From NCBI GenBank assembly GCA_030537595.1, contig JAUNVR010000011.1:22874-56473 (forward strand): 33,600 bases of DNA. Reading direction: 5' to 3'. Below, piece after piece: positions 6,060-31,652 of this stretch. The stretch is from Eubacteriales bacterium (GTDB lineage Bacteria > Bacillota > Clostridia > Saccharofermentanales > DTU023). Position 1 is the stretch's first letter; each line of letters starts with the position of its first letter. The notes beneath the pieces were generated by a model that saw only the letters and a program-made list of their open reading frames with translations, did not search any database and had not been told where the DNA came from. A program made the position numbers and the translations under genes.

Positions 6060-6063
6060 TTTG

Positions 6064-6652: not shown

Positions 6653-6689
6653 TAAGCTAGATACTCTCCTCTTAGGAATATTTGATTTA

Positions 6690-6698
6690 ATTCTAGCA
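6690..6698 (-). promoter_or_regulatory. Possible extended -10 promoter of the DUF503 gene
   Basis: On the minus strand TGC followed by TAGAAT forms an extended -10 element (TAGAAT at 6690-6695, TG at 6697-6698) about 40 bases before the start codon. No good -35 box is visible at the right distance, so this is a weak call. Confidence 0.35.
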
Positions 6699-6790
6699 CA
6701 GCAACTTTCTCAGCAGCTTCAAAGAGATCCCCTCAACTATAAATTCTCGGGAGGTCTAAAAGCAGCAGCTTGAGAACTATTCAGCTCAAA

Positions 6791-6820
6791 AAAGCCCCTC
6801 TATTTAAATAAAGGGGCTTT
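6791..6820 (-). terminator. Rho-independent terminator of the EIIC-dehydrogenase unit
   Basis: An 8-bp stem (AAAGCCCC at 6791-6798, GGGGCTTT at 6813-6820) with a 14-base AT-rich loop is followed on the minus strand by a run of six T. It lies about 34 bases after the stop codon of the dehydrogenase gene, exactly where its transcript should end. Confidence 0.85.
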
Positions 6821-6853
6821 GCTTAATCTTTATTAAAGCTAAAAATCTAGGGC

Positions 6854-7852: not shown

Positions 7853-7867
7853 GCTAAAACCTCCCTT

Positions 7868-13408: not shown

Positions 13409-13410
13409 TT

Positions 13411-15078
13411 TTATTTCTCCTTCATATCTGCAAATTCTGCAATTAAAGCTTCGATAAAGTCAGCACTATCTCCAATCAGCGCTAAATCCGCTTGGCGATT
13501 AACGAGAGCCTCCATATTTTCATTTACCGATACGAGCATTTTCGCATCTTTTATTCCCCACATCAGTGGTGTTGCACCAGAAACACCTAAAAGCAAAGCC
13601 AGCTGCGGCGCTAAACTCAAGCCCGAAATACCAAGCATCTCTTCTTTTACTGCCAGACCTTGGTGGACAAGTGCTCGAGAAGCAGTAAAACCCCAGCCTC
13701 GAGCTGCAGCAAGCTCACGTAAACGCGAGATATCTGCTTCACTGACCCCACGTCCAGCCACTACAACTACAGCTTTATTCGCAATTCCAGAACTGGCTTC
13801 TAGTGGCTGCTGAGAGTATATGCTCGCTTCATTCAAGTCATTTTTAAAATATGCTTTTGTCTCAAATAGTCTAGCTGCAACTTCACTTGCCGAGCTTTCA
13901 AAGCCTTTTTCCAAGACAAAAAAGTATGGCCCATGCCCTGCCTCGAGCCTTAAACTTTCGTGTAAATTATGGGCATATGCCATCCGTTCGACATAGATTG
14001 AATCCTGGAAGCTAATCTCTGTGACTTGTGTCAGGGCCAATCCAGAGCTCGAGCGGGCAAGATATCCTGCAATTCCTTGCGCCGTTTCTCGGGGCGGCAA
14101 GAAGAAGCAGCAATTTTTTAAGTCTGGGATTGCTTTAAGAGCTTCAAGAATTGCCTGGAAATCTAAAAGTCCGGGATGTAAATCCAGGAAATATGGCTTG
14201 TATGAATGCGCCTTTGCCGCTTGGAAAAAGCTCTCCGACCAGCGCTCATCCTCTGCTTCTGAATTCTCTTCTACAGTGGCTTCGGCTGCCTTTATATTTT
14301 CTAAGAAATTGAGCTCTCGCAAGGCTAGACGTGCTGCTTCAAGATTCTCAAAAGGCTGTTTCCGACCATCGCGCAAAAGAGCCTCATGGCGGTAAGCTTC
14401 GAGCCTCATGCCTGTCAAAGATACCCTCTCAACAGCAATTTCCTGAGCTATTTTATGCTTGGCACGCATCTTCTCCATCAGTGTTGCGACGCGCAGATAG
14501 GGGCTATAATCTTTAAGTGCAAGCACATGCGGTAATGAGAGCTCGAGGGCTTCTTGCACAGCGCCATTACGCCGCAGCACCCGCAGCCCTGCCTCGACTT
14601 TATGAGCAAGATCAAAGGCTTCGACCCCTGTTGTTAAAGGAAGGCCTAAAGCAGCAGCTACAGCTCCAGCAGTCAAGCCCAAGTCTCTGGGTAGAGCGCT
14701 TTGCCCAAATAGCAGAAGATCTGCCTGACTACTTTCAAGATAAGTTTTAAAGATCTCTGCTGTGTCAGTTATCGCTAAAGACTCAGTCTGAGTTTTTAAT
14801 AGGGTTACCTGATTAATTCCGACTGCGTACAATTGGCGCACGAAATCTGCTGCTGAATTGTCCTCTTCGCATAAGAGCACAGCCTCAAGTTCAAGCTCTG
14901 TCCCAGCTTTACTTAACGCCTCTTTCAAATCTAGAGCTGCTTCCAATGCCCCCTCATCGTCTGGAGACCAAATCCGCGGAGCAAATGAAAGATCACGATC
15001 TTCGACGAACTTAGCCCATTCAAAGCTGCGTAAGTTTTCTACTTCACGACATATTTTTGAAAAAACAAGAATTCTCAT
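13411..15078 (-). CDS. Second, diverged EtfB-EtfA fusion
   Basis: This 555-residue protein has the same EtfB-then-EtfA layout as the gene at 9185 but is strongly changed. The EtfB half (to about residue 240) keeps ALDLKEAL and a GQSALPRDLGLTAGAVAAALGLP stretch in place of IDGDTxQVGP. The EtfA C-terminal domain is recognisable from VVVVAGRGVSEADISRL, SRALVHQGL, LGVSGATPLMWG and VNENMEALVNRQADLALIGD. In it VGQTG has become LGISG, QH has become PL and API has become ALV, so FAD binding is uncertain. It is followed 2 bases later by the diverged GlcD-like gene. It may be a redox partner specific to that protein, or a structural or regulatory relic. The ATG at 15078 has AAGGAG directly after the hairpin at 15092-15117. 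Confidence 0.78.
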   Translation of the reverse strand: MRILVFSKICREVENLRSFEWAKFVEDRDLSFAPRIWSPDDEGALEAALDLKEALSKAGTELELEAVLLCEEDNSAADFVRQLYAVGINQVTLLKTQTESLAITDTAEIFKTYLESSQADLLLFGQSALPRDLGLTAGAVAAALGLPLTTGVEAFDLAHKVEAGLRVLRRNGAVQEALELSLPHVLALKDYSPYLRVATLMEKMRAKHKIAQEIAVERVSLTGMRLEAYRHEALLRDGRKQPFENLEAARLALRELNFLENIKAAEATVEENSEAEDERWSESFFQAAKAHSYKPYFLDLHPGLLDFQAILEALKAIPDLKNCCFFLPPRETAQGIAGYLARSSSGLALTQVTEISFQDSIYVERMAYAHNLHESLRLEAGHGPYFFVLEKGFESSASEVAARLFETKAYFKNDLNEASIYSQQPLEASSGIANKAVVVVAGRGVSEADISRLRELAAARGWGFTASRALVHQGLAVKEEMLGISGLSLAPQLALLLGVSGATPLMWGIKDAKMLVSVNENMEALVNRQADLALIGDSADFIEALIAEFADMKEK

Positions 15079-15474: not shown

Positions 15475-16926
15475 TTATTTCTCCAATTCTACCAGCGTAC
15501 CAGGGTTCATGATACCGTTGGGATCCATCATTTTCTTCAAACCCTTCATTAATTGATAAGAGCTGCCATGCTCTCTAGCTGCAAAGTTTACGCGACGCTT
15601 GCCCATACCGTGATGGTGCACTACGCCACCTGTTGGATATTTTATAACTTCTTCGCAAATTGCGTTAATAATCTGACGATGTAACTTATCTGCGAGTTCT
15701 GGCTGCGGCACCTTATACTCATAGACAAAGTAAATATTGGTACCGTTGATGTAGCTGTGCGATACATGTCCGCCGAGGACGGTCAGGACATCTTCAAATT
15801 GACCAGGCACATTGGCCATGACGTCATTGTAGATTTCCTTGATTTCAGACCAGTTGGCGGCAATTTCTGTAGTTGCATAGTAGGCCTTCTGGCTGCGGAA
15901 CTTCGCTGAGCGCTTTTCGTGGACATAACCCTCGCAAAGATCGTTTCTGTGGATCATCCAGTGCTCAACACCCTTGGTGCCAATCCAGCGTGCACCATGT
16001 TCTTTAGCAATTCTATCAATTGCTTCACCAGTTGCCTTGGCGATTTCCGGTGGTCCATCGGTGACGAAGAACATGAAGGCTTCATCGTCCTTCAGCTCTT
16101 GGCTCTTGTAGTTGTAGTCGTAGTCGGCCTTATCATAAAGACGTACTACGGATGGCTTATAGCCCTCACGCATAATCTCTCGAATCGCGTCGAAGCCCGT
16201 CATAATATCGTGCACGATATAGCCGCCAAGCCAACGTGAATCTGGGTAGTAAGGCTGTAACTTCAAGGTGACTTCAGTGATAAAGCCGAGTGCACCTTCA
16301 GAACCCATGAAGAGATGGCGTAGATCCGGGCCAGCTGCACGGCGGGGTACGTTCCGGATTTCGATCTCTTCTCCATTAGGTAAAAGACCCTTGAGACCAC
16401 AGAGCATATCTTCAATGGCACCAAAGTAGGTGGAGAACTGACCGATACTGCGGGTTGCTACTAGGCCGCCGAGGTCTGCCATCGGCAGAGACTGAGGCGC
16501 ATGGCCAGTCGTGTAGCCCTTGGGATTCAAGATCTCTTCTTCGAGGCGCTCGAGTGGCATACCACACTCAGCAGTGACCATCATATTCTCCGGATCAAAG
16601 GAGATTAGTTTATCCATCTGAGATGCATCGAGAACAATTGTGCTATCGTTGACAACCTCGAGTAGACCTTCTCCGCCTGAGCCGCCTGTCCGTGGAATTA
16701 CTGACACACCGTGTTCATTACAGTATTTTAGTGTCTTGACTAAATCCTCTTTGTTCTCTGCCATGACAATGGCGAGAGCCGGCGGGGTAAGATAAACCTC
16801 AAAGGCCTTTTCATAACCACGGTTCCAGGTGTCTGCATTGCGGCAGCTTGCCTCGTCGGTTAAAACCTTTTTCTCACTCAAGAGATTCTGTAAATCCTTA
16901 ATAACTTCGCTTTTTTCTTTGTTCAT
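15475..16926 (-). CDS. AGPS/GlcD-like FAD-binding oxidase
   Basis: This 483-residue flavoenzyme is of the PCMH/FAD_binding_4 family with an intact FAD loop (VIPRTGGSGGEGLL near residue 76), VTAECGMPLERLEEE, a GSEGALGFITEVTLKL stretch and a C-terminal cap with GGVVHHHGMGKRR and DPNGIMNPGTL. The HHHG motif and overall pattern are closest to alkyldihydroxyacetonephosphate synthase-like proteins. In bacteria such proteins are often 2-hydroxyacid or D-lactate-type dehydrogenases that pass electrons to Etf or quinone. Here an Etf fusion is encoded nearby, so Etf is the likely acceptor. It lies between the MFS transporter and the tautomerase in the operon. AGAGGA stands 5 bases before the ATG. The substrate is unknown. 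A phosphate or carboxylate bearing hydroxyl compound would fit the context. Confidence 0.8.
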   Translation of the reverse strand: MNKEKSEVIKDLQNLLSEKKVLTDEASCRNADTWNRGYEKAFEVYLTPPALAIVMAENKEDLVKTLKYCNEHGVSVIPRTGGSGGEGLLEVVNDSTIVLDASQMDKLISFDPENMMVTAECGMPLERLEEEILNPKGYTTGHAPQSLPMADLGGLVATRSIGQFSTYFGAIEDMLCGLKGLLPNGEEIEIRNVPRRAAGPDLRHLFMGSEGALGFITEVTLKLQPYYPDSRWLGGYIVHDIMTGFDAIREIMREGYKPSVVRLYDKADYDYNYKSQELKDDEAFMFFVTDGPPEIAKATGEAIDRIAKEHGARWIGTKGVEHWMIHRNDLCEGYVHEKRSAKFRSQKAYYATTEIAANWSEIKEIYNDVMANVPGQFEDVLTVLGGHVSHSYINGTNIYFVYEYKVPQPELADKLHRQIINAICEEVIKYPTGGVVHHHGMGKRRVNFAAREHGSSYQLMKGLKKMMDPNGIMNPGTLVELEK

Positions 16927-16961: not shown

Positions 16962-18185
16962 TTAATTTCTTTGTTCTTTGTATATCGACTTCGGGCCACC
17001 GGTTTCCGGCAGGAAGAGGGTGAGAACACCGAAGAGGACGGGAGATATGCAGCAAATCGCTAGTGCCATTTCTAGGCCGACAAAGCCGGCGAGATAACCC
17101 GCAACGATGGAGCCTAAAGACGCACCGAAGCCATTAATTGCGATGATGCAGGAGGTGCCGACGGAAATGCCCTCCGGGCTAAAGCCTGGGATTTTGAATA
17201 AGGAGGTTAAAGCCACCGGAACAAAGGCATAAGCACCGTAACCAACTAAAAATGAGCAGACTGATAAGAGTGCAACGCTGGTAAACTTGGTTAAACCAAA
17301 GTACAAGAAAGGTAGGATGAAGCCCCAGGGCCAGATTGCATTCTTATCTGACTTGATTAATTTCGGAATCTGGGCACCGGTGATTGAGCCAATCGCTGAA
17401 CCAATCGGTAAGAGTCCTAAGATGACCCCTGCTTGTTGCAGGCTTAAACCGAGATTTTCCGTTGCAAAAGTCGGCCAGAAGGTATACATTGCTACCCACA
17501 CAAAGCCTGTTCCCGGCCAACCGAACATCAAAAGTCTGACCGAGCGATGACTCCAAGCTTCCTTGAGCGGTTCGAGGAAGGCTTTTTTCGGACCAGTTTG
17601 AAGCGGAAGATCAGGGTTTTCTTGATAATTTAAAATCCAGAGCAGAGTCAGGATACCGGCAATTACACCTAAAATGATATTCGCCTTACGCCAGCCACCA
17701 ACTGCGGCAATGAAATATGTCATTACTGCTGTGCCCATCGCCTGCCCCATTGGAGCGATGAAGTTTTCAATTCCGTTCATGTTGGCGATTTGATCTGTAT
17801 GGAACCAATTATGTTTGACCATTGCTAGGGGTGCTACACAGCCACCGAGAGCGATAGCAATTAACATTTTTCCGACATACAACATAAAAACGCTATTCGC
17901 TGCACCAAAGAGCAGCAAACCGGCAAAGAGGCTGAAATATACCAGACTCAGGACCCACTTGGGTTTGAAGCGTGCTACGAATAAGGCAATAGGAATGGTA
18001 AAACCTGCTTTTACTAACCAGCCGATTGAGCCTAAAGTCCCTGCCTCGGCAGTGGTGAATCCAAGCTCGTGCATCATATCAGGCAGGATAATGCCGTAGG
18101 CAAAATTGGCAAGGTTCGCAAAGAGCATCGCGACCCAAGCGATGATAATGATAATTAGGCCTCGTTTAGCCATTTTGTGTTTCAT
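16962..18185 (-). CDS. Major facilitator superfamily transporter
   Basis: This 407-residue protein has about twelve membrane segments and the usual central break near residues 190-215, between the two six-helix halves. The first half shows FARFKPKWV-type basic residues in the loop between helices 2 and 3, characteristic of MFS proteins. It sits between the DUF1667 gene, whose end it overlaps by 20 bases, and the FAD oxidase gene, so it most likely imports the substrate of this pathway or exports its product. AGGAG lies 8 bases before the ATG at 18185. An in-frame ATG at 18173 is possible but has no better site. The pattern fits anion or organic acid porters in general, and the substrate cannot be assigned. 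Confidence 0.85.
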   Translation of the reverse strand: MKHKMAKRGLIIIIIAWVAMLFANLANFAYGIILPDMMHELGFTTAEAGTLGSIGWLVKAGFTIPIALFVARFKPKWVLSLVYFSLFAGLLLFGAANSVFMLYVGKMLIAIALGGCVAPLAMVKHNWFHTDQIANMNGIENFIAPMGQAMGTAVMTYFIAAVGGWRKANIILGVIAGILTLLWILNYQENPDLPLQTGPKKAFLEPLKEAWSHRSVRLLMFGWPGTGFVWVAMYTFWPTFATENLGLSLQQAGVILGLLPIGSAIGSITGAQIPKLIKSDKNAIWPWGFILPFLYFGLTKFTSVALLSVCSFLVGYGAYAFVPVALTSLFKIPGFSPEGISVGTSCIIAINGFGASLGSIVAGYLAGFVGLEMALAICCISPVLFGVLTLFLPETGGPKSIYKEQRN

Positions 18186-18558
18186 GTAGTGTTCTCCTCT
18201 CTTTCATGCTGATTGCAGCAAGAATGTTGGTGTCCGTGCCACCGATGTTCGCAATCAAGACCTCACCTGCCTCAATCGGTGCCTTTAGCTCAAGATGATG
18301 CAAAATATTCAAGCAGTCTTTGAGCTTTGCTCTGGACGTCTCCTTATCTCCGATGACGGGAATTCTGGGATAAATACCTCCTTTGACTTTGACAGTTGTT
18401 GTGAGCATTCGTTTCGGCTCCGTCATCTCACTGATGCCGTATTCAATGCCCCGTTTACAACCGTAATCTTCAACCTGCCATTCCTGCTCTTCATCCTGAA
18501 AGACCTTGATGTGACAGCCTCTAGGACAAACGATGCAGACCATCTCTTTCTTCTCCAT
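18166..18558 (-). CDS. DUF1667 protein with four cysteines
   Basis: This 130-residue DUF1667 protein has Cys8, Cys11, Cys15 (CIVCPRGC) and Cys33 (YGCKRG) near the N-terminus, a pattern suited to a metal or iron-sulfur site. The rest (TTTVKVKGGIYPRIPVIGDKE) is the family core. Genes of this family commonly follow glycerol-3-phosphate-dehydrogenase-like and FAD oxidoreductase genes in Firmicutes, as here, where it may be a small electron-transfer partner comparable in role to GlpC. Its ATG directly follows the TAA of the upstream gene, with GGAGG 9 bases back. Its end overlaps the MFS gene by 20 bases. Confidence 0.85.
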   Translation of the reverse strand: MEKKEMVCIVCPRGCHIKVFQDEEQEWQVEDYGCKRGIEYGISEMTEPKRMLTTTVKVKGGIYPRIPVIGDKETSRAKLKDCLNILHHLELKAPIEAGEVLIANIGGTDTNILAAISMKERRTLHETQNG

Positions 18559-19818
18559 TTACAGTTCCTCCAAACCGACGCTGTATCCCTCACCTTCTCC
18601 GAGTTCTTGAACCTTGACTTCAACTTCCAACATCTCGGGAGGTGCCACAAAGTTCTTTCGCTTCTTTGAAAGCTGTGCTTCGCCTCTATTGACCATCAAT
18701 GAAGCCTTTTCCATTGGCCGCGTGACCCGCATGTATAAGGGTAAAGTGAAGTTTTTCGCCTCCTTACGAACCCTTTGCGGAATCACATAAAAGACATTAT
18801 CTCCAGCCTCTACTGGGACATATTCAGAATTCATGTCTAGCTGTCCCTTAAGGTAGGCCGCCGCTCCCCGTGCCGCATACTCAGCGGTCTTTGACACATA
18901 ATCCACCAGGTCAAAAACAGCGCAGACATTACCAGCAGCGAATACACCGGGCAGGCTAGTCATATAGCTTTCGTCTATAGTTGGACCCTGGGTGATCCGG
19001 TCAATTTCAATTTCTGCCTGCTGCGATAGCTCATTTTCAGGAATTAAACCGACAGAGAGCACCAATAAATCACAGGGTATATAGCGTTCAGTGCCTGGAA
19101 TTGGACGGTAGTTTTCGTCAACCTTCGCAACCGTTACACCTTCAAGGCGGCGTTGTCCGTGTACCCGAACTACGGTCGTACTGAGATGGAGTGGAATCTG
19201 ATAATCGTCAAGACATTGCACAATATTCCTAGTTAAGCCTCCGGGAGAAGCTTTCAACTCGTAAACCCCTTCGACTTCAATGTCTTCAAAGACCATCCGC
19301 CGCGCCATAATTAGCCCAATATCACCTGAGCCCAGTATCACAGCCCGTTTCCCCGGGAGATAACCTTCCATATTGATATACCTTTGGACGGCACCTGCAG
19401 TTAAAACGCCGGCGGGTCTGGTGCCACTGACAAAAACCTGATTCCTGGTTCGTTCGCGGCAGCCCATGGCCAGGATAATGCTCTTGCAGCGTAGGCATTG
19501 CATACCATCTGCTTCTGAAATTGTGTAAAGTTCTTTGTTTGCAGTCATCTCAATTACAGTGGTATTCAATAGATACTCGACACCTACAGCTTCCAGCTCA
19601 TCGATGAAGCGCTGAGCGTATTGCCCGCCAGATAGGCGAACACCAAAACGCTGGACTCCGAAACCATCATGAATACACTGTTGTAAAATCCCTCCGAGCG
19701 CCACATCGCGCTCGATTAGGAGGACGTCCTCAATGCCTTGTTTCTTCAATTCAATGGCAGCAGCCATTCCTGCCGGCCCACCACCGATGACGACACAATC
19801 TACGTTTCGCTCACGCAT
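18559..19818 (-). CDS. NAD(P)/FAD-dependent oxidoreductase (GlpB-like partner)
   Basis: This 419-residue flavoprotein has two dinucleotide-binding sites: GGGPAG at residues 12-17 for FAD and LGSGDIG near residue 163 for NAD(P). It also has an LPGVFAAGNVCAVFDLVDYV stretch near 300 that closes the FAD domain. It belongs to the pyridine-nucleotide-disulfide oxidoreductase fold without an active CxxC. In Firmicutes this family is encoded between a GlpA-like dehydrogenase and a DUF1667 protein, the same order as here, so it probably forms a complex with them that moves electrons between the dehydrogenase and NAD(P) or another carrier. AGGAGG lies 6 bases before the ATG at 19818, which overlaps the end of the upstream gene by 8 bases. 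Confidence 0.85.
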   Translation of the reverse strand: MRERNVDCVVIGGGPAGMAAAIELKKQGIEDVLLIERDVALGGILQQCIHDGFGVQRFGVRLSGGQYAQRFIDELEAVGVEYLLNTTVIEMTANKELYTISEADGMQCLRCKSIILAMGCRERTRNQVFVSGTRPAGVLTAGAVQRYINMEGYLPGKRAVILGSGDIGLIMARRMVFEDIEVEGVYELKASPGGLTRNIVQCLDDYQIPLHLSTTVVRVHGQRRLEGVTVAKVDENYRPIPGTERYIPCDLLVLSVGLIPENELSQQAEIEIDRITQGPTIDESYMTSLPGVFAAGNVCAVFDLVDYVSKTAEYAARGAAAYLKGQLDMNSEYVPVEAGDNVFYVIPQRVRKEAKNFTLPLYMRVTRPMEKASLMVNRGEAQLSKKRKNFVAPPEMLEVEVKVQELGEGEGYSVGLEEL

Positions 19819-21571
19819 CCTGGACCTCCTCTGTAAACTCTCTTGTATTCTTTAATAAGACCTCACTGCCAGCTTCTTTTAGGTTAATTTTGCACCAATC
19901 TGTTTGGAGTGCTTCGGCCAAGAGCTCAACTACCCTCGGTTGGCAGAATCCGCCCTGACAGCGTCCCATGCCTGCCCTTGTTCTCCGCTTAATGGCATCT
20001 ATTGAACGAGGTGGAATTAAAGAATCCATACAATCTAAGATCTCGCCTGCGGTTATCTGCTCACAGCGGCAAATTATTTGACCATATTTGGGATTTTCTT
20101 CGATCAGCTTTGCCTGCTCCTCGCGACTCAACTTGCGAAACTCTGGCTTGCGCTTGCGGATCGGATTAAAGCTGGCTTTTCGCTCGAGTGGCTGCCCATC
20201 AGCCGCTCTTTCTGCTTTGAGAATATTTTCTACAAGCTCGGCAATTGCAGGCGCAGAGGCCAAGCCGGGTGACTGAATTGCAGCGCAGTGAATTAGACCT
20301 TTGACATGTCTTGAAGCTTCAATTATGAAATCCTCGGTATAATCTGCCGGTCGAATCCCAGAAAAAATCGCGATCACATCACGGCGCTGAATGCCCTCAA
20401 CGACATCCATGCCCCGTCCCAGTGCATATTCTAAATCTTCAGGGTTGAAACCGAGGTCTTCTTTGTCTGGAATTTCGCTCGCTGACGGTCCTAAAAGAAT
20501 ATTGCCCTCAACTGTAGTTTGAGCTCCGCCACCTTTAGAATCTGGATTCTTAGCTTTGGGCACAGAGCCAAGTGTGCCTTTTAAAACACCTTGGATACCC
20601 TTATCTAAAAGCAGGATCGTACCGCGGCGGCCGTGGATCGTAAAGAACTCGTCATCTGCCATTACGGCGATGTCATCGGCGTAAATTCCTGCCGCATTTA
20701 TTAGGTACTTAGCTCTGACAATGCCTTGCTTTGTGACAACCCCTGCGATCCTCTGATCTTCGATTAGGACATTTGCAACTTCAGCATCGAAAATGAACTT
20801 AACTCCATTTTCGGCAGCATTTTCAGCCAAGGCAATAGTCACAAGATAGGGTTCAACCACTCCCATGGTCGGGGCTAGAACCGCCATCAAAGGTTCACCC
20901 TTAACACCTGGTTCTCTTCTTTTTAATTCCTCGCCGCTAAATAACTCCATGCCGGGCACGCCATTAGCCACGCCGTCATCATAGATTTTTTGCACCTTTG
21001 GCAGATCGTCCTCATCGTAGGCGAAAGAAATCGCTCCGATTCTTTTAAGATCAAAATCTAGTTCTTCAGCCCAGCGATCGTACATCTCGTTACCTAAGAC
21101 GTTGAGCCGTGCTTTCAAGGTACCGGGTTTGGCTTTATGGCCTGGATGAATATCTCCATTATTGGCTCTGGTTGCGCCCTCAGCGACATCAAGGTTTTTT
21201 TCGACTACTACGATATCCAGATCGTACTTCGAAAGCTCTCTGGCAATGCCACAGCCAGATATTCCTGCCCCAACAATGACTACGTCACAGTCAGCAATTA
21301 CGCCCTTTTGGAGCCCGGCCTCAAGGCTTTGTGAATAATCTTTGCGGTAGGCTGCCATGTCTGGAATTTCCAGATGGTTGACGACATTTCGCACACCGTC
21401 AACTTTAGCCGCCTGGTGTCCTAAATCGACGACATCGCGCCATTCAGGAACCTGCCCCTCTAAGACCACTATATCGCCATCCTTGACACGCACATCCAAC
21501 TTGCCTTCGCAAGCCTCAACCCGAGCAGCAAGCTGCTCTTGCACCCTGGCTCTCAATTCATTATTCTGCAT
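19811..21571 (-). CDS. GlpA-like dehydrogenase with N-terminal BON domain and BFD [2Fe-2S] domain
   Basis: This 586-residue protein has three parts. Residues 4-70 look like a BON domain (two-layer pattern with LDVRVKDGDIVVLEGQVPEW and a VDGVRNVVNHLEI end). Residues 95-455 are a DAO-type FAD dehydrogenase with GAGISG at 101-106, like anaerobic glycerol-3-phosphate dehydrogenase GlpA. The last part is a BFD-like [2Fe-2S] domain with Cys501, Cys503, Cys538 and Cys543. It would oxidise sn-glycerol 3-phosphate or a related phosphorylated polyol. The BON domain is unusual in such an enzyme. BON domains are mostly known from envelope proteins, and no signal peptide is present, so here it may bind membrane lipid or a partner. 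It sits 20 bases after the kinase gene with AAGGAG 6 bases before the ATG. Confidence 0.85.
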   Translation of the reverse strand: MQNNELRARVQEQLAARVEACEGKLDVRVKDGDIVVLEGQVPEWRDVVDLGHQAAKVDGVRNVVNHLEIPDMAAYRKDYSQSLEAGLQKGVIADCDVVIVGAGISGCGIARELSKYDLDIVVVEKNLDVAEGATRANNGDIHPGHKAKPGTLKARLNVLGNEMYDRWAEELDFDLKRIGAISFAYDEDDLPKVQKIYDDGVANGVPGMELFSGEELKRREPGVKGEPLMAVLAPTMGVVEPYLVTIALAENAAENGVKFIFDAEVANVLIEDQRIAGVVTKQGIVRAKYLINAAGIYADDIAVMADDEFFTIHGRRGTILLLDKGIQGVLKGTLGSVPKAKNPDSKGGGAQTTVEGNILLGPSASEIPDKEDLGFNPEDLEYALGRGMDVVEGIQRRDVIAIFSGIRPADYTEDFIIEASRHVKGLIHCAAIQSPGLASAPAIAELVENILKAERAADGQPLERKASFNPIRKRKPEFRKLSREEQAKLIEENPKYGQIICRCEQITAGEILDCMDSLIPPRSIDAIKRRTRAGMGRCQGGFCQPRVVELLAEALQTDWCKINLKEAGSEVLLKNTREFTEEVQDA

Positions 21572-21591: not shown

Positions 21592-23073
21592 CTAAACGGC
21601 ATCAGCCTCATACCAATCCAAGCAACGCTCCAAGGCTTTAAGCCACATTTTATAGGCCTTTTGCTCTTGTTCTTGTCGCTCATTCGGTTCAAAGGTACTG
21701 AGTGTTTCGCAAATTGTTTCAACATCCTGATACTCAATCCAGCCGAGTTTCAAAGCCGCAAATTCAGCTGCACCGAGAGCCGAAGCCTCTACCGTTTTCT
21801 GACGTATAATGTCCAGATCAAAGAGATTTGCCATTTGCTGAGCTAGGACATTTGACTGACTCAAACCACCTGAAATTTTCATTGATTTGAATTCCATTGA
21901 AGTCAGGGAACGAATGTCGTTGAATATGTTGTAAATACTGAATCCAACACCTTCCAAAGCAGCCCGAATTAAGTGGTTCTTTGTAGTCGAGCCTGAAACT
22001 CCCATATATGCGGCGCGTGCGGATTTTATATGCGCATATCCGGTCAAAGCTGGAATAAAGTAGACGCCGCCATTATCTGGGACTAATTGGCTTTGTAAAT
22101 CGATCAGTTTGACATCGTCCATGAGACGTAAATGATGGACCAGCCATTCCATTACCGCACCGGTAGTCGCGACAAAGCGCTCGGCCATGAAGGTTGGCTT
22201 GCCATCAACTGTCCAGGCAATTCTTAAATAGCTCGGATCCTTAACTGCGTAGTAATCTTGGCCGAGGTTTGCGGTAATAAAGCTACCGGTTCCATTCGTA
22301 CACTTTACAGTGTTCGGCTCCAAGCAGCCCTGGGCAAAGAGGGCTGACTGCTGATCAGCGACAACTCCGTAAATTGGAATCCGCTTACCTAAAATCTCTT
22401 CATCCAAATAGCCGTAACAGTCGGCTTCATTTTTGACCTCGGCAAACATCTTACGGGGATAGCCGAGTGCATCAATTAAATCGTAATCCCAATCACCCTT
22501 TTCCACGCTTGCTAGCTCGATTGAACTCAAATTGGAAGAAGAGGTGGCAAAGCATTCTCCACCGGTCAACTGGTAAATTAACCAAGTGTCAACAGTCCCA
22601 AAGCAAAGCTCACCCTGCTTGTACAGCTCCTGAGCTTCCGCATCGCAGTTAGCGATTACACGCTCAAGTTTTAGTGAAACTGAGGAAGGAACTAAACGTT
22701 CTGCATAGCGCGGGAAACGGCTGCAAATCTCGGGATCAGCCGTCGTCACATCACCGGTTTGATCCTGCCAGACGATTGCCGGATGAACGAGATGACCGTG
22801 CTCGCGCTCCCATAGCGCCCAGGTTAAACGCTGGTTGGTCATCCCGATGGCAGCGATGTCTTCTAAAAGAATTTCATGATCCGCCAAACAGCGCTTCATG
22901 GTGAGAACTGTCTTGTGGTAGATATCGTCAAAGGACTGCTCCACGCGTCCATCCTCACCGTAGTCGATATCAATTTTTTCATAGGCCTGGCCGACAATAT
23001 TGAACTTGCGGTCAAAGATTAGAGTTCTTACCCCTGTCGTGCCTTCATCGATTACCATTATTTTTTGATTCAC
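21592..23073 (-). CDS. FGGY-family kinase, GlpK-like with altered substrate residues
   Basis: I place the start at the GTG at 23073, giving 493 residues, because AAGGAGGG lies 5 bases before it and the product then begins MNQKIMVIDEGTTGVRTLIFD like other kinases. The longer frame from the ATG at 23118 would read through that site. The ATP/fold motifs of glycerol kinase are present: DEGTTGVR at 9-16, NQR at 80-82, AIVWQDQ, ADQQ at 239-242 and GTGSF. By eye alignment, the residue equal to E. coli GlpK Glu84 is Leu83 and the Tyr135 position is Ser, while Arg82, Trp102 and Asp240/Gln241 are kept. It is therefore probably a kinase of a related polyol or sugar and not a plain glycerol kinase. First gene of the operon. 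Confidence 0.8.
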   Translation of the reverse strand: MNQKIMVIDEGTTGVRTLIFDRKFNIVGQAYEKIDIDYGEDGRVEQSFDDIYHKTVLTMKRCLADHEILLEDIAAIGMTNQRLTWALWEREHGHLVHPAIVWQDQTGDVTTADPEICSRFPRYAERLVPSSVSLKLERVIANCDAEAQELYKQGELCFGTVDTWLIYQLTGGECFATSSSNLSSIELASVEKGDWDYDLIDALGYPRKMFAEVKNEADCYGYLDEEILGKRIPIYGVVADQQSALFAQGCLEPNTVKCTNGTGSFITANLGQDYYAVKDPSYLRIAWTVDGKPTFMAERFVATTGAVMEWLVHHLRLMDDVKLIDLQSQLVPDNGGVYFIPALTGYAHIKSARAAYMGVSGSTTKNHLIRAALEGVGFSIYNIFNDIRSLTSMEFKSMKISGGLSQSNVLAQQMANLFDLDIIRQKTVEASALGAAEFAALKLGWIEYQDVETICETLSTFEPNERQEQEQKAYKMWLKALERCLDWYEADAV

Positions 23074-24544: not shown

Positions 24545-25465
24545 ATGCCCACAAATCAAAAGGCAAAAATCGATCTGAGTCAATTGACGACTGAATCTCG
24601 CAATCCTGAAAGTTCGAGGCTCGACGAAATGTCGGCTTTAGAAATCGCGACTTTGATGAATCGTGAAGATCAAAAGGTCCCACTCGCCATCCAGCCTATT
24701 CTAGGGGATATCGCCCTAGTCATTGAGCGTGTTGCCGCAGCTTTTCAAAATGGCGGCAGGCTCTTTTACATTGGTGCTGGAACTAGTGGACGGCTAGCTG
24801 TTCTCGATGCGGCTGAATGCCCCCCAACTTTCGGAGTTTCTCCAGATTTAGTCGTCGCTTTAATTGCCGGCGGAGAAAAGGCCTTTGTTCAGGCGGTTGA
24901 GGGTGCTGAAGATAGCCTCGAACTCGCTGCTAGAGACCTTCGCGCAAAGAATTTGACTGCAAATGACGTGGTCATTGGTCTTGCAGCCTCGGGTCGGACA
25001 CCCTATGTCCTCGGCGGCCTAAACTACGCCAAGTCTCTGGGTGCTTTTACTGCAGCGATTGCCTGTAATCGAAATAGTGAGATTGGCCGTGTAGCTGATC
25101 TCGCCTTAGAGATTATTGTGGGTCCAGAGGTCCTCAGTGGTTCGAGCAGATTAAAGGCTGGAACTGCGCAAAAGCTGGTCCTCAATATGATTTCTACTGG
25201 AGCTATGGTGCTCTGCGGCAAGTGCTATCAAAATCTGATGGTCGATGTCGTGCAGAGCAATGAAAAGCTAAAGGTCCGCGCTGAAAACATTGTCATGGAA
25301 GTCTGTGGCGAAAGTCGTGAGCGAGCGAGGGCAGCGATTGATGCCGCCGATGGTGAGCTTAAAACCGCTATTGTTAGTTTAATGCTCGGCTCGACTCCTG
25401 CTGTCGCCAGGGCCCGTTTGGCCGAACACGGCGGCCACGTCCGGAAGGCTAGCCAAGACAAGTAA
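24545..25465 (+). CDS. murQ: N-acetylmuramic acid 6-phosphate etherase
   Basis: This 306-residue SIS-domain enzyme cleaves the lactyl ether of MurNAc 6-phosphate to GlcNAc 6-phosphate and D-lactate in the cytoplasm. It shows the MurQ opening TESRNPESSRLDEMSALEIATLMNREDQKVPLAI, the SIS sugar-phosphate loop GAGTSGRLAVLDAAECPPTFG with the catalytic-type Glu of AAECPP, and the second Glu in VEGAEDS. Length is normal. GAGGT lies 5 bases before the ATG. The next genes encode the matching PTS permease and MupG, so its function is well supported. The D-lactate released is the substrate type handled by the dehydrogenase at 6854 and perhaps by the Etf-linked oxidases in this window. Confidence 0.93.
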   Translation: MPTNQKAKIDLSQLTTESRNPESSRLDEMSALEIATLMNREDQKVPLAIQPILGDIALVIERVAAAFQNGGRLFYIGAGTSGRLAVLDAAECPPTFGVSPDLVVALIAGGEKAFVQAVEGAEDSLELAARDLRAKNLTANDVVIGLAASGRTPYVLGGLNYAKSLGAFTAAIACNRNSEIGRVADLALEIIVGPEVLSGSSRLKAGTAQKLVLNMISTGAMVLCGKCYQNLMVDVVQSNEKLKVRAENIVMEVCGESRERARAAIDAADGELKTAIVSLMLGSTPAVARARLAEHGGHVRKASQDK

Positions 25466-25500
25466 GCAAGAGGATTCCGTGTTCAAGATCTGAAAAGCTT

Positions 25501-25538
25501 CTGCCGAGCAAGCTAGGTTTACTAGTAAAGCCCGGCAG
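25501..25538 (+). repeat. Imperfect hairpin in the murQ-murP gap
   Basis: CTGCCGAGC (25501-25509) pairs with GCCCGGCAG (25530-25538) at 8 of 9 positions, closing a 20-base loop that itself holds two CTAG copies. It lies in the 169-base gap between murQ and murP and has no U-tract after it. It may protect the transcript end or set relative expression of the two genes. Confidence 0.4.
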
Positions 25539-25634
25539 CAGCCAAGTCCTAGAACCCTTAGTCCTGCTCGCTAAATTCTAATTAAAAAGTAGAATTCTAG
25601 CTAAGCATAAATTAAAGAAAAGATGAGGTAGATT

Positions 25635-27119
25635 ATGAGTGAAGTTAAATTAGCCCAAGAGCTTCTGAATCTAGTCGGAGGCAAGGAAAATGTGCGTCAA
25701 GCCAGTCACTGTATGACTCGCTTGCGCGTTGATTTATTCGACCGTAGCAAGGTCAATATTGATGGTATAAAGGCCGCCGGCGGTGTGCTCGGGGTGGTCG
25801 ATGATGAAACCTTGCAGATCGTTTTAGGTCCGGGCAAGGCGCGGAAAGTCTGCGAAGACTTCGCCGCTCTTGCAGCGATTGATATGCCAGTCGAGGATTT
25901 AAGTGGCCAGGTCAGAGAAGAGATTAAAGGTAGTGATGGAAAGTCCAGAGCAAAACTTGGCCACTGGCAAGAAACTAAGGCCGAGCTTAAAGCAGGCCAA
26001 AAGGATAACTTCCTGAAGCGCGGCTTACGCACGATTGCCAACATCTTTATTCCAATGATTCCTGCAGTTATTGCTGCCGGTCTATTCTTTGGTCTTTCTA
26101 GCCTAGTCGCTCAGCTTTGCCCTAGACAATTCGAAATTAAGGCCGGTCTCGGCTATGTGCTGACCGTTCTTTTCCAACTCTTTGGCTCCTCCTTCCTCGG
26201 TTATTTCGCAATTTTCACCGGTGTCAGTGCTGCCCAGCAGTTTGGTGCCACTCCGGCAATGGGCGGAATGATTGGTGCAATGTCCCTGGGTGGCCAGATC
26301 ATCGCCCTCTCGACCTGGCTCGGCCTTTATAATGTCGATGAACCCCTAAAATCCATCCTCACCACAGGTAAGGGCGGGATTATCGGGGTAATCATTGGAG
26401 TCTGGATTCTGGCCAAAGTCGAGAAGTTCTTCCGCAAGCGGATTCCCGATGTGCTGGACTTAATCCTAACTCCCCTCTTCACAATCTTCATCACAGGAAC
26501 AATTTTCGTCTTTGCGATTATGCCTTTGGCCGGTTTAATTTCAGATGGCCTAGTCTTTGTCTTAAGCCTTTTAATTAACTCTGCAAACCCCGTAATTTCA
26601 GTTATCTCCGGTTATGTGCTCTCTGCCGTTTTCCTGCCTATGGTGCTGCTCGGCTTGCATCACGGCTTAATTCCGATCTACGCTGTCCAGCTCGAGCAGA
26701 TGGGCGGAGTCTCCCTCTTCCCCGTCCTCGCAATGGCCGGTGCAGGTCAGGTCGGTGCTGCTATAGCAATTTATTTGAAGGCTGCCAAAAGCCGTAATCT
26801 GAGCCTCAAAAAGATTATTTTAGGCGCCTTACCCGCCGGTCTTTTAGGTGTTGGTGAGCCCTTAATCTACGGTGTCACCTTGCCGCTCGGTAAGCCTTTC
26901 ATCACTGCTGGGCTGGGCGCTGGCTTCGGTGGTGCATTCGTCATGCTGATGGGTGTTAAGGCCATCGCCTGGGGTCCTTCAGGTCTGGTTGCAATCCCCC
27001 TGATGAAGACTCCGGCAATGATGCTCTACTACTTCCTCGGTCTGCTGATCGCTTACACCGGTGGCTTCATCATAACCAGTCTCTTCATTAAAGAAGACGA
27101 TATCGCAAAGATTAAATAG
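25635..27119 (+). CDS. murP: PTS EIIBC permease for N-acetylmuramic acid
   Basis: This 494-residue PTS permease has an N-terminal EIIB domain (residues 1-85) with the phosphorylated Cys26 in ASHCMTRLRVDL. A linker follows, then an EIIC membrane domain from about residue 130. The EIIC part has the substrate-pocket motifs GLHHGLIPIYAVQLEQMGG and GVGEPLIYGVTLPLGKPF, close to MurP. It imports MurNAc and releases MurNAc 6-phosphate, using an EIIA from elsewhere, since no EIIA is fused or encoded here. Glucose-family permeases for sucrose or trehalose look similar, so the assignment rests on both motif and neighbours. GAGGT stands 7 bases before the ATG. In some Firmicutes the imported form is a MurNAc-containing disaccharide, which would fit the following mupG gene. 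Confidence 0.9.
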   Translation: MSEVKLAQELLNLVGGKENVRQASHCMTRLRVDLFDRSKVNIDGIKAAGGVLGVVDDETLQIVLGPGKARKVCEDFAALAAIDMPVEDLSGQVREEIKGSDGKSRAKLGHWQETKAELKAGQKDNFLKRGLRTIANIFIPMIPAVIAAGLFFGLSSLVAQLCPRQFEIKAGLGYVLTVLFQLFGSSFLGYFAIFTGVSAAQQFGATPAMGGMIGAMSLGGQIIALSTWLGLYNVDEPLKSILTTGKGGIIGVIIGVWILAKVEKFFRKRIPDVLDLILTPLFTIFITGTIFVFAIMPLAGLISDGLVFVLSLLINSANPVISVISGYVLSAVFLPMVLLGLHHGLIPIYAVQLEQMGGVSLFPVLAMAGAGQVGAAIAIYLKAAKSRNLSLKKIILGALPAGLLGVGEPLIYGVTLPLGKPFITAGLGAGFGGAFVMLMGVKAIAWGPSGLVAIPLMKTPAMMLYYFLGLLIAYTGGFIITSLFIKEDDIAKIK

Positions 27120-27163
27120 TTCTAAGAGATTGTTCCATCCTAGGGTGGTGGACGGAGGCATAA

Positions 27164-28234
27164 ATGAAGCTAAGTAGTAGTAAACAAAGTATTGGTTTTT
27201 CAGCCTTTTTGACCGGCTTTGAAAGTCAAAAACCGCTCCTTGCCGAGGCCGCTAAGGCCTCGGCTTCGGGGCTGATGTTGTTCACCTCGCTCCATGTATA
27301 CGAGGAAGTTTCTGCGACCTATGCAGCTGAGATGAAGGAGCTTTGTAATTGGCTTACTGCGCATAATTTTCGCATTATTGCTGATGTTTCGAAGCGCACA
27401 AAGGATTACTTTGAGCAGGAAGATTTAACTGTCCTGGCAAAGGAACTGGGAATTTGGGCACTGCGCCCCGACTACGGTTTCGAGCTCGAGGAGATTAAAT
27501 ACTTCGCAACTCAGCTCCCCCTAGTCGTCAACGCAACAACTACAGGGATTGAGACCATAGTTGAGTTGCAGGAAGTTGCAAGAGAACTTTATGCTATGCA
27601 TAATTACTATCCACGGCCTGAGACCGGCCTCGACCCGCCTTTTTTCCAAGCTCTAAACGCAGAGCTGAGAGATTGTGGAGTGGGTATCATGGCCTTTGTC
27701 CCGGGGGATACTAAGGTGCGTCAGCCTCTCGGTGAGGGCTTGCCGACTCTGGAAAGCCAGCGTGCTTTACCGCCTTCTGTAGCTTATGTCGAGATGCTCG
27801 TGCGTTACGGGGTCGATTATGTCTTCTTAGGTGACCCTGGTATTTCAGCTTCAGAATTAGCTAGAATTCAGGACTATGCTGAGACTTCAATCCTGAAGCT
27901 CCCGGCTCGTCTAGACCCTGCTTACCACAGTCTGTATGGGAAAGTTTTCACCCATCGTGTAGATTCTCCCAGTACTTTAATCCGCTTTGCTGAGTCGCGT
28001 GAATACGCTGTTCAAGGTGCAAAGACTGAGGTCGGACTTACGCTGCCTCGACCCCGCGGTTCTTTGACCATAGATAATGAAAGGTATAAACGCTATTCTG
28101 GCGAAATTCAATTGCTCCGCGAGGATTTCCCCGCTGATCAAAGAGTAAATCTGATTGGTGCCATAGATGAATCATATCTAGCGCTAATTGATTGCATTCC
28201 CCGTGGTTCACGCCTAATGCTGATTGAAGCTTAG
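27164..28234 (+). CDS. mupG: MupG-family 6-phospho-N-acetylmuramidase (DUF871)
   Basis: This 356-residue protein is of the DUF871 family, now known as MupG from Staphylococcus aureus, where it cleaves MurNAc 6-phosphate-GlcNAc in the cytoplasm. It starts with a TIM-barrel-like part (FSAFLTGFE, ASGLMLFTSLHVYEE, IIADVSKRT, LRPDYGF, LVVNATTTG). The C-terminal beta-barrel domain begins near residue 250 with YHSLYGKVFTHRVDSPS. The S. aureus operon mupG-murQ-murP-murR contains the same enzyme set. Here the order is murQ-murP-mupG and no murR follows. It lies 44 bases after murP with GGAGG 6 bases before the ATG. It would make MurNAc 6-phosphate available to MurQ. Confidence 0.9.
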   Translation: MKLSSSKQSIGFSAFLTGFESQKPLLAEAAKASASGLMLFTSLHVYEEVSATYAAEMKELCNWLTAHNFRIIADVSKRTKDYFEQEDLTVLAKELGIWALRPDYGFELEEIKYFATQLPLVVNATTTGIETIVELQEVARELYAMHNYYPRPETGLDPPFFQALNAELRDCGVGIMAFVPGDTKVRQPLGEGLPTLESQRALPPSVAYVEMLVRYGVDYVFLGDPGISASELARIQDYAETSILKLPARLDPAYHSLYGKVFTHRVDSPSTLIRFAESREYAVQGAKTEVGLTLPRPRGSLTIDNERYKRYSGEIQLLREDFPADQRVNLIGAIDESYLALIDCIPRGSRLMLIEA

Positions 28235-29716: not shown

Positions 29717-31036
29717 ATGCAGCTTAAAAAGAGTGGAAAAACTGAGAATGGCGCAGTAAATAAGTGGCAAAGCTTAATTAATTCAGCGGCAGCTGAGCTC
29801 GACTTTGAGGGCTTAAACGAGGGCTTAAAGAAGCTAGTCTTGGACTCTTTTAGCCAAGAGTCTGAAGCTTTAGACCTAAAGGCCTACCTGAAAGCTCTAG
29901 CTGCTGCCAAAGCCGATTCTGCGGCGAACTGGAACCAGCTTTGTAAACCACTTCACTCCCTGGGTGTGCTCGAAAGTAGCATCAATCAAATCTATGCCTT
30001 GCAAACAGCCCGCAGGGGTCGCAGCTTCGACCCTAGGCGGGCTGTTTCGCTGCAACGAGGTCTGGTCGCAGTCTTTGCTGCCGACAATGGTGTAGTCGCA
30101 GAAGGCGTCAGCCAAGTCGGAGCCGAAGTCACTGCTACTGTGCTTAAAAACATTGCTCAAAAGAAGGCAAGTGTAGCAATTTTGGCCCAGGATCAGGGGC
30201 TAGATATCTTAGCCGTTAATCTCGGCTGTCGCGATTTGCCTAGCAGTAAAACTGTCGAAAGCGATAATTTAAGCACAGAACTCCTGGAGTCTATAGCTCA
30301 GGCCGAGCGCATAATTGCGGCCGACTCAAATTACCTGGACTTTGTTTTACGTCCAGCGGGTAGCCGCAACTTGATGCGTGAAGCAGCTCTCAGTAAAACT
30401 GAGTTAATTGCAGCCATAGCTTTCGGCTATAATCTGGGAATTTATGCAGGACAGGCGGGCTACGACTTCGTGATTGGTGGTGAGATGGGAATTGGTAATA
30501 CCACTTCTTCTACCGCCTTAGCTGCGGCGATTTTAGCTATAGCTCCTGCCGAGATTGCCGGCCGAGGTGCTGGCTTATCCGATGCTGCTTATGAGCAGAA
30601 GGTTCAGGTTTTGCAGCAAGCCTTAGAGCGCTGTGCTGGAATCTCAGAACCACTCGGCCTTTTAGCTGCTTTAGGCGGCTTCGATATCGCAGCCTTAGTT
30701 GGCTTCTACTTAGCTGCCTTCGTCTGTTCTCTACCAGTTTTACTAGACGGTCTAATCACAATTGTCGCTGCCACGGTCGCCAGCTTAATCATCCCTGAAG
30801 TTAGCACAGTTCTAATTCCCACGCATAGACCGCGCGAGAAGGCTTCACTTAGACTTCTAGCAAAGCTTGGGCTAGAAGCTCCGCTCGAGCTCGACCTAGC
30901 TTTGGGTGAAGGTGCAGGTGCGCTTTTTTACCTCCCGATTTTGCGAGCGGCAAATTTAATCTACCGTAAGCTTCCTTCTTTCGCCGAGGGGAAGGTTGAG
31001 CAGTATAAGGATTTTAAAGATGAAGAAGCAAAATAG
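29717..31036 (+). CDS. cobT: Nicotinate-nucleotide-dimethylbenzimidazole phosphoribosyltransferase
   Basis: This 439-residue enzyme activates the lower-ligand base of cobalamin by moving phosphoribose from nicotinate mononucleotide to it. Family motifs are clear: VFAADNGVVAEGVSQVGAEVT, GGEMGIGNTTSSTALAAAIL, GRGAGLSD and LALGEGAGALFYLPILRAA, which holds the catalytic Glu. The usual length is about 350. The extra residues are mostly an N-terminal extension of about 80 residues with low complexity in Ala and Leu. The ATG at 29717 has only a weak binding site, so the start might lie further in, or translation may be coupled to the upstream gene 16 bases away. It overlaps cobU by 17 bases. No cobalamin riboswitch precedes it. 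Confidence 0.92.
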   Translation: MQLKKSGKTENGAVNKWQSLINSAAAELDFEGLNEGLKKLVLDSFSQESEALDLKAYLKALAAAKADSAANWNQLCKPLHSLGVLESSINQIYALQTARRGRSFDPRRAVSLQRGLVAVFAADNGVVAEGVSQVGAEVTATVLKNIAQKKASVAILAQDQGLDILAVNLGCRDLPSSKTVESDNLSTELLESIAQAERIIAADSNYLDFVLRPAGSRNLMREAALSKTELIAAIAFGYNLGIYAGQAGYDFVIGGEMGIGNTTSSTALAAAILAIAPAEIAGRGAGLSDAAYEQKVQVLQQALERCAGISEPLGLLAALGGFDIAALVGFYLAAFVCSLPVLLDGLITIVAATVASLIIPEVSTVLIPTHRPREKASLRLLAKLGLEAPLELDLALGEGAGALFYLPILRAANLIYRKLPSFAEGKVEQYKDFKDEEAK

Positions 31037-31652
31037 AAATTTCGAACTCAAATTACCGGAAGAGATTTTTCGACCTCATGAAATGAGCCTGATTATCGGT
31101 GGCGAAAAATCAGGGAAATCTGACTTTGCAGAACAGGCGGCCTTTCAATTGGCGCAGTCCATGAACCAGCCCCTACTCTACCTGGCCACCTTATACATTG
31201 GGGACGATCTAGAAAATCAGGAGCGGGTTAGAAAACATCGGGAGCAGCGTTCTGCCTATGGTTTTTCTAACCATGAAATCTACTTTGACTTCAAGGATCA
31301 GATTGTCAATCTTCCGAGTGGGCATATTATTCTTTTAGACTGCCTGACTAATCTGCTCACTAACCGCCTTTACCGTCCTGTCGGTGACGAGTGGGAGACC
31401 AGTGAAGATAGTGACGAGCTGATTATTGATGAGCTGTTATTGGCCTTAGAGAGTCTCGCTTCGACTTCCTCTCACCTTTTTATTGTGGCCAATGATTTGC
31501 ATCGCAATCTCCCGGTACAAAGTCCTGAAATGCAGCGTTTTTTACGCTTACATGGAAAACTATTACAAGCAATCGCGAAGCGCCCCGGGAGCAATTTATT
31601 TGAACTCAACTTTGGCCAGGCAGATTTAATCAAGGCCAGTTTCTCAGGCTAG
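31020..31652 (+). CDS. cobU: Adenosylcobinamide kinase/guanylyltransferase
   Basis: This 210-residue enzyme phosphorylates adenosylcobinamide and attaches GMP. I start it at the ATG at 31020, which has AAGG about 9 bases upstream and overlaps the end of cobT. The longer frame from a TTG at 30996 is less likely. The P-loop reads GGEKSGKS (usual GGARSGKS) near residue 25. The guanylylated His is present in RVRKHREQRS, and LLDCLTNLL is conserved. The later family motif NEVGxGIVP is replaced by NDLHRNLPV, and the usual FRDxxGxxNQ is FLRLHGKLLQA. The kinase half looks sound, but the C-terminal half is diverged. Neighbours cobT and cobS fully support the pathway role. Confidence 0.88.
   Translation: MKKQNRNFELKLPEEIFRPHEMSLIIGGEKSGKSDFAEQAAFQLAQSMNQPLLYLATLYIGDDLENQERVRKHREQRSAYGFSNHEIYFDFKDQIVNLPSGHIILLDCLTNLLTNRLYRPVGDEWETSEDSDELIIDELLLALESLASTSSHLFIVANDLHRNLPVQSPEMQRFLRLHGKLLQAIAKRPGSNLFELNFGQADLIKASFSG

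Follow-up and report, generated by a model that had tools for sequence, protein, structure and literature searches.

A GlpK-like kinase with a changed glycerol pocket, encoded beside GlpA-like and AGPS-like flavoenzymes, suggests an oxygen-free breakdown of glycerol derivatives

Alkyl-DHAP synthase (AGPS), an enzyme of ether-lipid synthesis, acts on O-substituted dihydroxyacetone phosphate (DHAP) by a chemistry that runs through a C1 carbanion, attack on the flavin N5 and loss of R-OH. Homologues of this enzyme are in use as metagenome markers of ether-lipid synthesis (excerpt of PMC11868695). The opposite process, cleavage of the alkylglycerol ether bond, is assigned to the tetrahydrobiopterin-dependent monooxygenase AGMO, which an excerpt of PMC3617469 calls the only enzyme known to carry it out. 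Glycerol kinase (GlpK) belongs to the FGGY kinases, whose range spans many polyols and sugars, and is recognised by the specificity signature Arg83, Glu84, Tyr135, Asp245 and Phe270 (excerpt of PMC3245297). The glycerol hydroxyls are bound in the Plasmodium falciparum enzyme by Glu84, Arg83, Asp246, Tyr135 and Gln247, and Trp103 and Phe271 pack on the glycerol carbon chain (excerpt of PMC2680290). A clostridial cluster that codes for a kinase, GlpA, a FAD protein and a DUF1667 protein is found in Pseudoclostridium thermosuccinogenes (excerpt of PMC7282089).

The window, which is the whole stretch of 33,600 nucleotides that was analysed, belongs to the 1.55-Mb genome of an anaerobe (G000; 96% complete). 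Downstream of a kinase gene lie five genes, spaced at 20, -8, 0, -20 and 35 bp, and further flavoprotein genes and a regulator gene lie beyond them:

21592-23073, minus strand: GlpK-like FGGY kinase with Leu for Glu84 and Ser for Tyr135 (open reading frame, Pfam, HMM, alignment, fold model)
19811-21571, minus strand: GlpA-like flavoprotein with BON, DAO and BFD-like [2Fe-2S] domains (Pfam, solved relatives)
18559-19818, minus strand: FAD/NAD(P) flavoprotein of the disulfide-reductase type, in the GlpB position (domain scans)
18166-18558, minus strand: DUF1667 protein (Pfam)
16962-18185, minus strand: MFS transporter (domain scans)
15475-16926, minus strand: AGPS-like FAD enzyme of 483 aa with FAD_binding_4/FAD-oxidase_C domains (profiles, residues, model)
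13411-15078, minus strand: fused electron-transfer flavoprotein (ETF), second copy, 396 bp past the AGPS-like gene
12035-13408, minus strand: FAD-linked oxidase-type protein whose EHG motif is changed to ENG, a recurrent neighbour of ETF and AGPS-like genes
11094-12038, plus strand: divergent regulator with a YhfZ_C domain (domain scan)
9185-11002, plus strand: fused EtfBA electron-transfer flavoprotein (domain scan)

The kinase frame opens on a GTG codon that yields 493 aa, with an alternative in-frame ATG at 23118 that would yield 508 aa. A strong Shine-Dalgarno sequence (AAAGGAGGG) lies upstream of the GTG and none precedes the ATG, which makes the boundaries 21592-23073, also those of an earlier sequence-only reading of this DNA, the likelier ones. 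The nearest solved relative of the GlpA-like protein is the L-alpha-glycerophosphate oxidase 4x9m; the scores of the GlpA-like protein lie below all curated cut-offs (NF033460, 254 bits for a cut-off of 460; TIGR03377, 140 for 553). The flavoprotein in the GlpB position has ~55-64% identity to its counterparts in many relatives that share this gene arrangement. Relatives of the MFS protein occur in a matching setting in Angelakisella (49%) and in a Roseburia MAG (39%), and the search for solved relatives by sequence returned none at the thresholds used, so that it gives no substrate hint; the same search was also negative for the FAD-linked oxidase-type protein. Both fused ETFs are single polypeptides that correspond to separate genes in many relatives. 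An Rfam scan of the window gave no match. Promoter-like sites are no more frequent than in shuffled sequence (13, with 13.9 in shuffles), unlike terminator-like sites (23, with 11.9), and neither kind was used as evidence.

Other regions of the window code for different functions. Positions 24545-28234 hold a set for MurNAc cell-wall recycling formed by a SIS-domain protein, which we take to be MurQ-like, a PTS EIIBC and a MupG-type 6-phospho-N-acetylmuramidase. The chemistry of MurNAc recycling would set lactate free, on which the ETF and FAD proteins at 12035-15078 might act. Positions 29717-31652 code for DBI_PRT (CobT-type) and CobU-type cobalamin lower-loop proteins, with the MurNAc recycling genes and a C69 peptidase as neighbours.

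The product of the minus-strand kinase gene scores above the Pfam FGGY cut-off, and its AlphaFold model (pLDDT 89.1) ranks GlpKs first in Foldseek (best match 6ude, E 4.5e-51), with GlpK fold matches of Z up to 46.5. The sequence-only reading had taken it for a GlpK-type kinase, and these matches confirm the family. It scores below the models that define GlpK more narrowly, with 371.7 bits on the GlpK equivalog TIGR01311 (cut-off 590 bits), and does not reach the GlpK subfamily cut-off NF000756. The XylB model gives 131 bits for a cut-off of 380.

The pocket was compared in a MAFFT alignment of 85 rows: the window kinase, E. coli K-12 GlpK and 83 further rows. Numbered from the GTG, the residues D9, R82, W102, D240, Q241 and F265 are the kept equivalents of Asp10, Arg83, Trp103, Asp245, Gln246 and Phe270. 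Glu84 is unambiguously replaced by L83. The Tyr135 column holds S130 and is ungapped; pairwise HMMER alignment to solved GlpKs sets a two-residue deletion there, with Val opposite Tyr. The sequence-only reading had reported Arg83, Trp103, Asp245 and Gln246 as kept, Glu84 as Leu and Tyr135 as Ser. The first two statements hold as made, and the third holds to the extent that the residue is Ser by MAFFT, Val by HMMER and Tyr in neither, so that neither alignment places Glu at 84 or Tyr at 135. That both lost residues contact glycerol, as was also stated, agrees with the P. falciparum enzyme (excerpt of PMC2680290). The window kinase thus reads R, L, S, D, F at the five signature positions and departs from the signature at two of them: the predicted catalytic frame is intact, and two of the five specificity residues are gone.

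This departure is found in a wider group. In 59 genomes that share its family or order, no match to the window kinase exceeds 34% identity, and the best matches by E-value among 391 genomes of the class (36-38% identity) all come from one family (f56) and are likewise devoid of Glu84. A single-protein scan of genome contigs with the window kinase returned no relatives; the wider comparison was opened through the profile of its AGPS-like neighbour. Glu84 is absent from 43 kinase rows (duplicates included), replaced by A, L, V, T, N, S or G, and Tyr135 is V, F, H, S, T, N, I, L or R in these rows. Asp10, Arg83, Trp103, Asp245, Gln246 and Phe270 are kept in all 43. Rows that keep Glu84 (E. coli left out) have Tyr135 in 38 of 41 cases and Asn in 3. 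Since the six other active-site residues are constant and Tyr135 accompanies Glu84 so closely, the loss of Glu84 and Tyr135 is more than chance drift. The kinase tree, built by a quick method after dropping 11 duplicate rows, with the columns at issue left in and with several long branches, places 33 Glu84-lost and 41 Glu84-kept rows on the two sides of one branch (SH-aLRT 100); the window kinase pairs with that of Angelakisella massiliensis (support 89). All seven relatives tested score 375-573 bits on TIGR01311, and three canonical GlpKs 718-766. The group of the window kinase is thus a putative new subfamily of a known kinase. Its members at loci L122, L053 and L115 exceed the NCBI GlpK subfamily cut-off, and kinases that do so will probably be given the name glycerol kinase.

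The last gene of the run, at 15475-16926, looks GlcD-like when only its Pfam domains are considered. Its closest solved relatives are AGPS (137 and 135 bits), followed by glycolate oxidase (91) and LctD (75). A profile of 41 sequences widens this distance: AGPS reaches 337 and 310 bits over nearly the full length, and glycolate, lactate and hydroxyglutarate dehydrogenases remain at or below 190 (glycolate oxidase 190, D-lactate dehydrogenase 189, LctD 169). Arg419, Tyr578 and His615-617 of guinea-pig AGPS, which we take to be functional residues of that enzyme, correspond to R262, Y399 and H437-H439, and the mutants Arg419His and Tyr578Phe of AGPS are named in PDB titles. The R-Y-HHH set is kept in 95 of 98 relatives, a count to be read with the fact that HHHG was among the patterns of the scan that supplied 80 of the loci, next to a second pattern, the R and Y columns being unselected; E. 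coli GlcD has EHGEH at this place. Arg515 of the guinea-pig enzyme, presumably also an important residue, is not kept and aligns to a column with a non-Arg consensus. An identity as GlcD/glycolate oxidase was rejected on the HHH for GEH (no EHG motif), on the TIGR00387 score (128.6 bits for 568) and on the profile. The AlphaFold model (pLDDT 91.8) finds AGPS first in Foldseek, whereas the structure-only ranking of VIA-align puts D-lactate dehydrogenase (Z 39.0, rmsd 2.7, 440 aligned) before AGPS (Z 36.2, rmsd 2.7, 460 aligned), so that the fold alone is not decisive. The enzyme is probably closer to AGPS than to glycolate and lactate dehydrogenases, and is best described as a candidate sister of AGPS.

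Linkage between the two families was measured in two ways. In the first, 49 kinases were collected with no criterion other than kinase similarity, and an AGPS-like gene was found within 10 kb of five of the nine that lack Glu84 and of one of the 40 that keep it (Fisher p 0.0004, computed on events that are not independent, since three of the five AGPS-linked kinases are paralogs in one genome). In the sole Glu84-keeping exception (G420), the AGPS-like protein has 579 aa and shares its operon with another FGGY kinase. No AGPS-like gene lies within ~8 kb of the Glu84-lost kinases of G145, G346 and G237 (one genus) or of one of the four in G432. The G432 kinase adjoins an apparent glycyl radical enzyme and activase, identified by eye (L054:8158-9639 and 5746-8130). 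In G145 the neighbours are methyltransferase- and corrinoid-protein-like genes, also by eye. Glu84-lost kinases at L056:8436-11865 and L055:4309-7738 adjoin UroD-type methyltransferase and corrinoid-protein genes, again by eye, which suggests a link to C1 or O-demethylation metabolism.

In the second, 90 AGPS-like loci were examined and the 68 with at least 38% identity to the window protein were counted, with co-location profiles built partly from the counted loci; L183 (37%, with the GlpA set) fell below the threshold, and L185-L188 were not given to the count. The same fetched stretch holds an FGGY kinase in 48 of the 68 loci, an ETF in 48, a GlpA-type protein in 34, an SDR in 14 and a YhfZ-type regulator in 14, and more rarely a BCCT transporter (4), a G3P-responsive antiterminator (4), Fe-ADH (3), a window-like MFS protein (2) or a GlpD-type enzyme (1). 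Over the GlpA, GlpD, SDR and Fe-ADH types together, most of the 68 loci have a polyol or polyol-phosphate dehydrogenase. Ten loci have neither a kinase nor any dehydrogenase; several of the 68 are short contigs of a few kb, so that absences there mean little. Of the 48 loci with a kinase, 42 have their nearest FGGY gene on the same strand, and 43 have it no more than 6 kb away.

The gene sets fall into several variants. Variant A, found in the window, Eubacterium, the Roseburia MAG and Angelakisella, joins a GlpK-like kinase, GlpA, the FAD/NAD protein, DUF1667 and the AGPS-like enzyme, often with ETF; in A' (Paenibacillus herberti) the kinase and AGPS-like genes are accompanied by a GlpO/GlpD-type enzyme. 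Variant B joins an SDR, another FGGY kinase, the AGPS-like enzyme and ETF, with BCCT in several loci, and B' joins Fe-ADH, a G3P-responsive antiterminator, an FGGY kinase and the AGPS-like enzyme (two Lacticaseibacillus species, including Lacticaseibacillus zeae). Variant C has a periplasmic-binding-protein importer, an extended SDR, a Glu84-lost kinase and an AGPS-like protein (59-61%) in G041, whose AGPS-like protein is the closest one within the same order, and, by eye, in Synergistaceae. Variant D has a longer AGPS-like protein, GlpA and another FGGY kinase. Whether phosphorylation would precede oxidation (A, A') or follow it (B, B'), the product would be of the same kind, a substituted DHAP, and substituted DHAPs are the class of compounds on which AGPS acts. 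Loci L064 and L089 are overlapping stretches of one Angelakisella contig with two different AGPS-like genes. A 375-aa protein with no Pfam match (L055:14567-15694) and a similar-looking one of 377 aa (L122:11245-12378) are each encoded directly 3' of a second AGPS-like subfamily.

From the observed gene order, residues, family relations and recurrent co-location we infer a substrate class and a series of catalytic steps. The window kinase is seemingly not a dedicated glycerol kinase; that it phosphorylates a C1-substituted glycerol, which is then oxidised at C2 and relieved of its substituent by the AGPS-like enzyme, is the reading we favour, with confidence that is evenly balanced. The substrate would be R-O-CH2-CHOH-CH2OH, or its analogue with a different leaving group, imported by the MFS protein and phosphorylated at C3. 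A pocket devoid of Glu84 and Tyr135 would give up the contacts to the masked hydroxyl and make room for R, and the double loss is in keeping with a substrate that has one of its hydroxyls masked. The GlpA-like flavoprotein, the FAD/NAD protein and DUF1667 would convert C2 to a ketone, giving 1-substituted DHAP. The AGPS-like enzyme would work in reverse of ether-lipid synthesis: the C1 carbanion would attack the flavin N5, R-OH would leave and water would free DHAP. Release as in AGPS would yield DHAP with no net redox. The recurrent ETF linkage led us to consider also an oxidative release, in which electrons would stay on the flavin and be taken by the ETF, leaving an oxidised C3 phosphate. 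The identity of R and what the ETF and the second FAD protein do are inferred as well, and the ether linkage of R is a guess.

Points that count against this proposal are the structure-only ranking, the loss of Arg515, the ETF in 48 of 68 loci, which suits redox and non-redox chemistry alike, the Glu84-lost kinases that have no AGPS-like gene, the single GlpA-like gene of the genome and the ten loci that have none of the core partners.

The alternative that stands nearest to the sequence-only reading is a kinase for a longer polyol or ketose, e.g. a tetritol or pentitol, whose product the GlpA-like protein would turn into a ketose phosphate, the AGPS-like enzyme and ETF being a plain later dehydrogenase. 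The breadth of FGGY substrates (excerpt of PMC3245297), the first structural rank of D-lactate dehydrogenase and the frequency of ETF speak for it. However, R-Y-HHH in place of the GlcD EHGEH and the large profile advantage of AGPS are at odds with a plain dehydrogenase, no sugar-phosphate aldolase or isomerase is present among the operon genes scanned, and the GlpD-type enzyme and G3P-responsive antiterminators of related loci favour C3 chemistry. We regard it as unlikely. The sequence-only reading had proposed another polyol or sugar instead of glycerol: its negative part is probably right and its positive part probably wrong, since an adjacent GlpA-like dehydrogenase and AGPS-like flavoenzyme point to a C1-substituted glycerol derivative rather than to a longer polyol or sugar.

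A relaxed yet ordinary glycerol kinase, in a glycerol/glycerol-3-phosphate operon with functionally unrelated neighbours, would be in keeping with the GlpK fold and family, with the retained Asp245, Arg83, Gln246, Trp103 and Phe270 and with the GlpA-like protein, which is the sole assembly match to its own sequence and the sole near-full-length DAO match. Against it, the genome codes elsewhere for the second, canonical GlpK whose presence the sequence-only reading had left to be checked (G000:C8:19194-20672, which is L002:1486-2985). That enzyme has all signature residues and 718 bits on TIGR01311 (cut-off 590), and shares 35% identity with the window kinase. Given this canonical GlpK, the missed GlpK cut-offs and the loss of two of five specificity residues, the window kinase is unlikely to be the glycerol kinase of the cell. 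The specificity residues are moreover lost across the subfamily and the AGPS-like linkage recurs; we give this alternative little credence. A search of the assembly for a MIP/GlpF glycerol facilitator (PF00230) gave no match. Being the only one in the assembly, the GlpA-like protein may also oxidise ordinary glycerol-3-phosphate, and the suggestion that the operon might not be for glycerol at all is therefore too strong.

The same logic could apply to a leaving group on glycerol C1 that is not an alcohol, namely an amine, quaternary ammonium, thiol or sulfonate. Four of the 68 loci have a BCCT (betaine/choline/carnitine) transporter together with SDR, FGGY and AGPS-like genes. Such transporters adjoin these genes at L178:15514-17154 and L176:3295-4839, which hints at quaternary-ammonium compounds as substrates, conceivably the head groups of betaine lipids, and G041 has a methylenetetrahydrofolate-reductase-like gene and the periplasmic-binding-protein importer by its kinase and AGPS-like genes. 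However, AGPS acts on an O-substituted substrate, the window has an MFS protein and not a BCCT, and a betaine-bearing ether, conceivably a deacylated DGTS head group, would suit a BCCT yet be an ether; such leaving groups are quite improbable here. Ether-lipid synthesis or salvage, with the kinase phosphorylating free alkylglycerol and the AGPS-like enzyme making alkyl-DHAP for membranes, would suit the AGPS family, whose Myxococcus xanthus member participates in ether-lipid synthesis (excerpts of PMC11868695 and PMC9131029), but is very unlikely given that the window genes scanned include neither an acyltransferase nor a fatty-acyl reductase, in contrast to the M. xanthus operon (excerpt of PMC9131029), and given the catabolic look of the transporter and dehydrogenase genes and the linkage with SDR/Fe-ADH and G3P-responsive antiterminators.

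The favoured reading, a C1-substituted glycerol as substrate, has a bolder extension. The combination of a changed-pocket kinase, a dehydrogenase and an AGPS relative suggests O2-free breakdown of glycerol derivatives, e.g. glycerol ethers. A tentative generalisation, which we hold as possible and somewhat doubtful, is that O2-independent cleavage of glyceryl ethers is widespread: an FGGY kinase and a dehydrogenase would lead to 1-O-R-DHAP, from which the AGPS relative would expel R-OH hydrolytically or with electrons passed into ETF, and the operons would differ by R, those with BCCT perhaps acting on betaine-lipid head groups. If true, AGPS-type flavin chemistry gains a catabolic role, and a catabolic sister family would confound the use of AGPS homologues as ether-lipid markers. 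Among the literature matches listed, from a coverage that leaves most subscription journals outside, no report joins kinase, AGPS and DUF1667 genes.

Compared with the closest described systems, the window kinase resembles GlpK in its two FGGY domains, its fold and its catalytic and most pocket residues, and differs by the replaced Glu84 and Tyr135, by scores below TIGR01311 and NF000756 and by its separate branch. The GlpA-like protein has the DAO and BFD [2Fe-2S] domains in common with GlpA and type 2 glycerol-3-phosphate oxidase, and differs by its N-terminal BON domain and its sub-cut-off scores. AGPS (2uuu, 4bby) is the best profile match to the window flavoenzyme and shares Arg419, Tyr578 and His615-617 with it; its chains have 584 and 658 aa, whereas the window enzyme has 483 aa, lacks the extra N-terminal part and Arg515, is not found beside acyltransferase or reductase genes and would probably run in reverse. 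The P. thermosuccinogenes cluster has the same three redox genes by a kinase, to which the window adds the changed pocket, the MFS protein and the AGPS-like enzyme. AGMO also cleaves the glyceryl ether bond, as the proposed pathway would, with the difference that the proposed route needs no O2; AGMO being described as the only such enzyme, an anaerobic route would explain the disposal of ether glycerolipids by gut and sediment bacteria.
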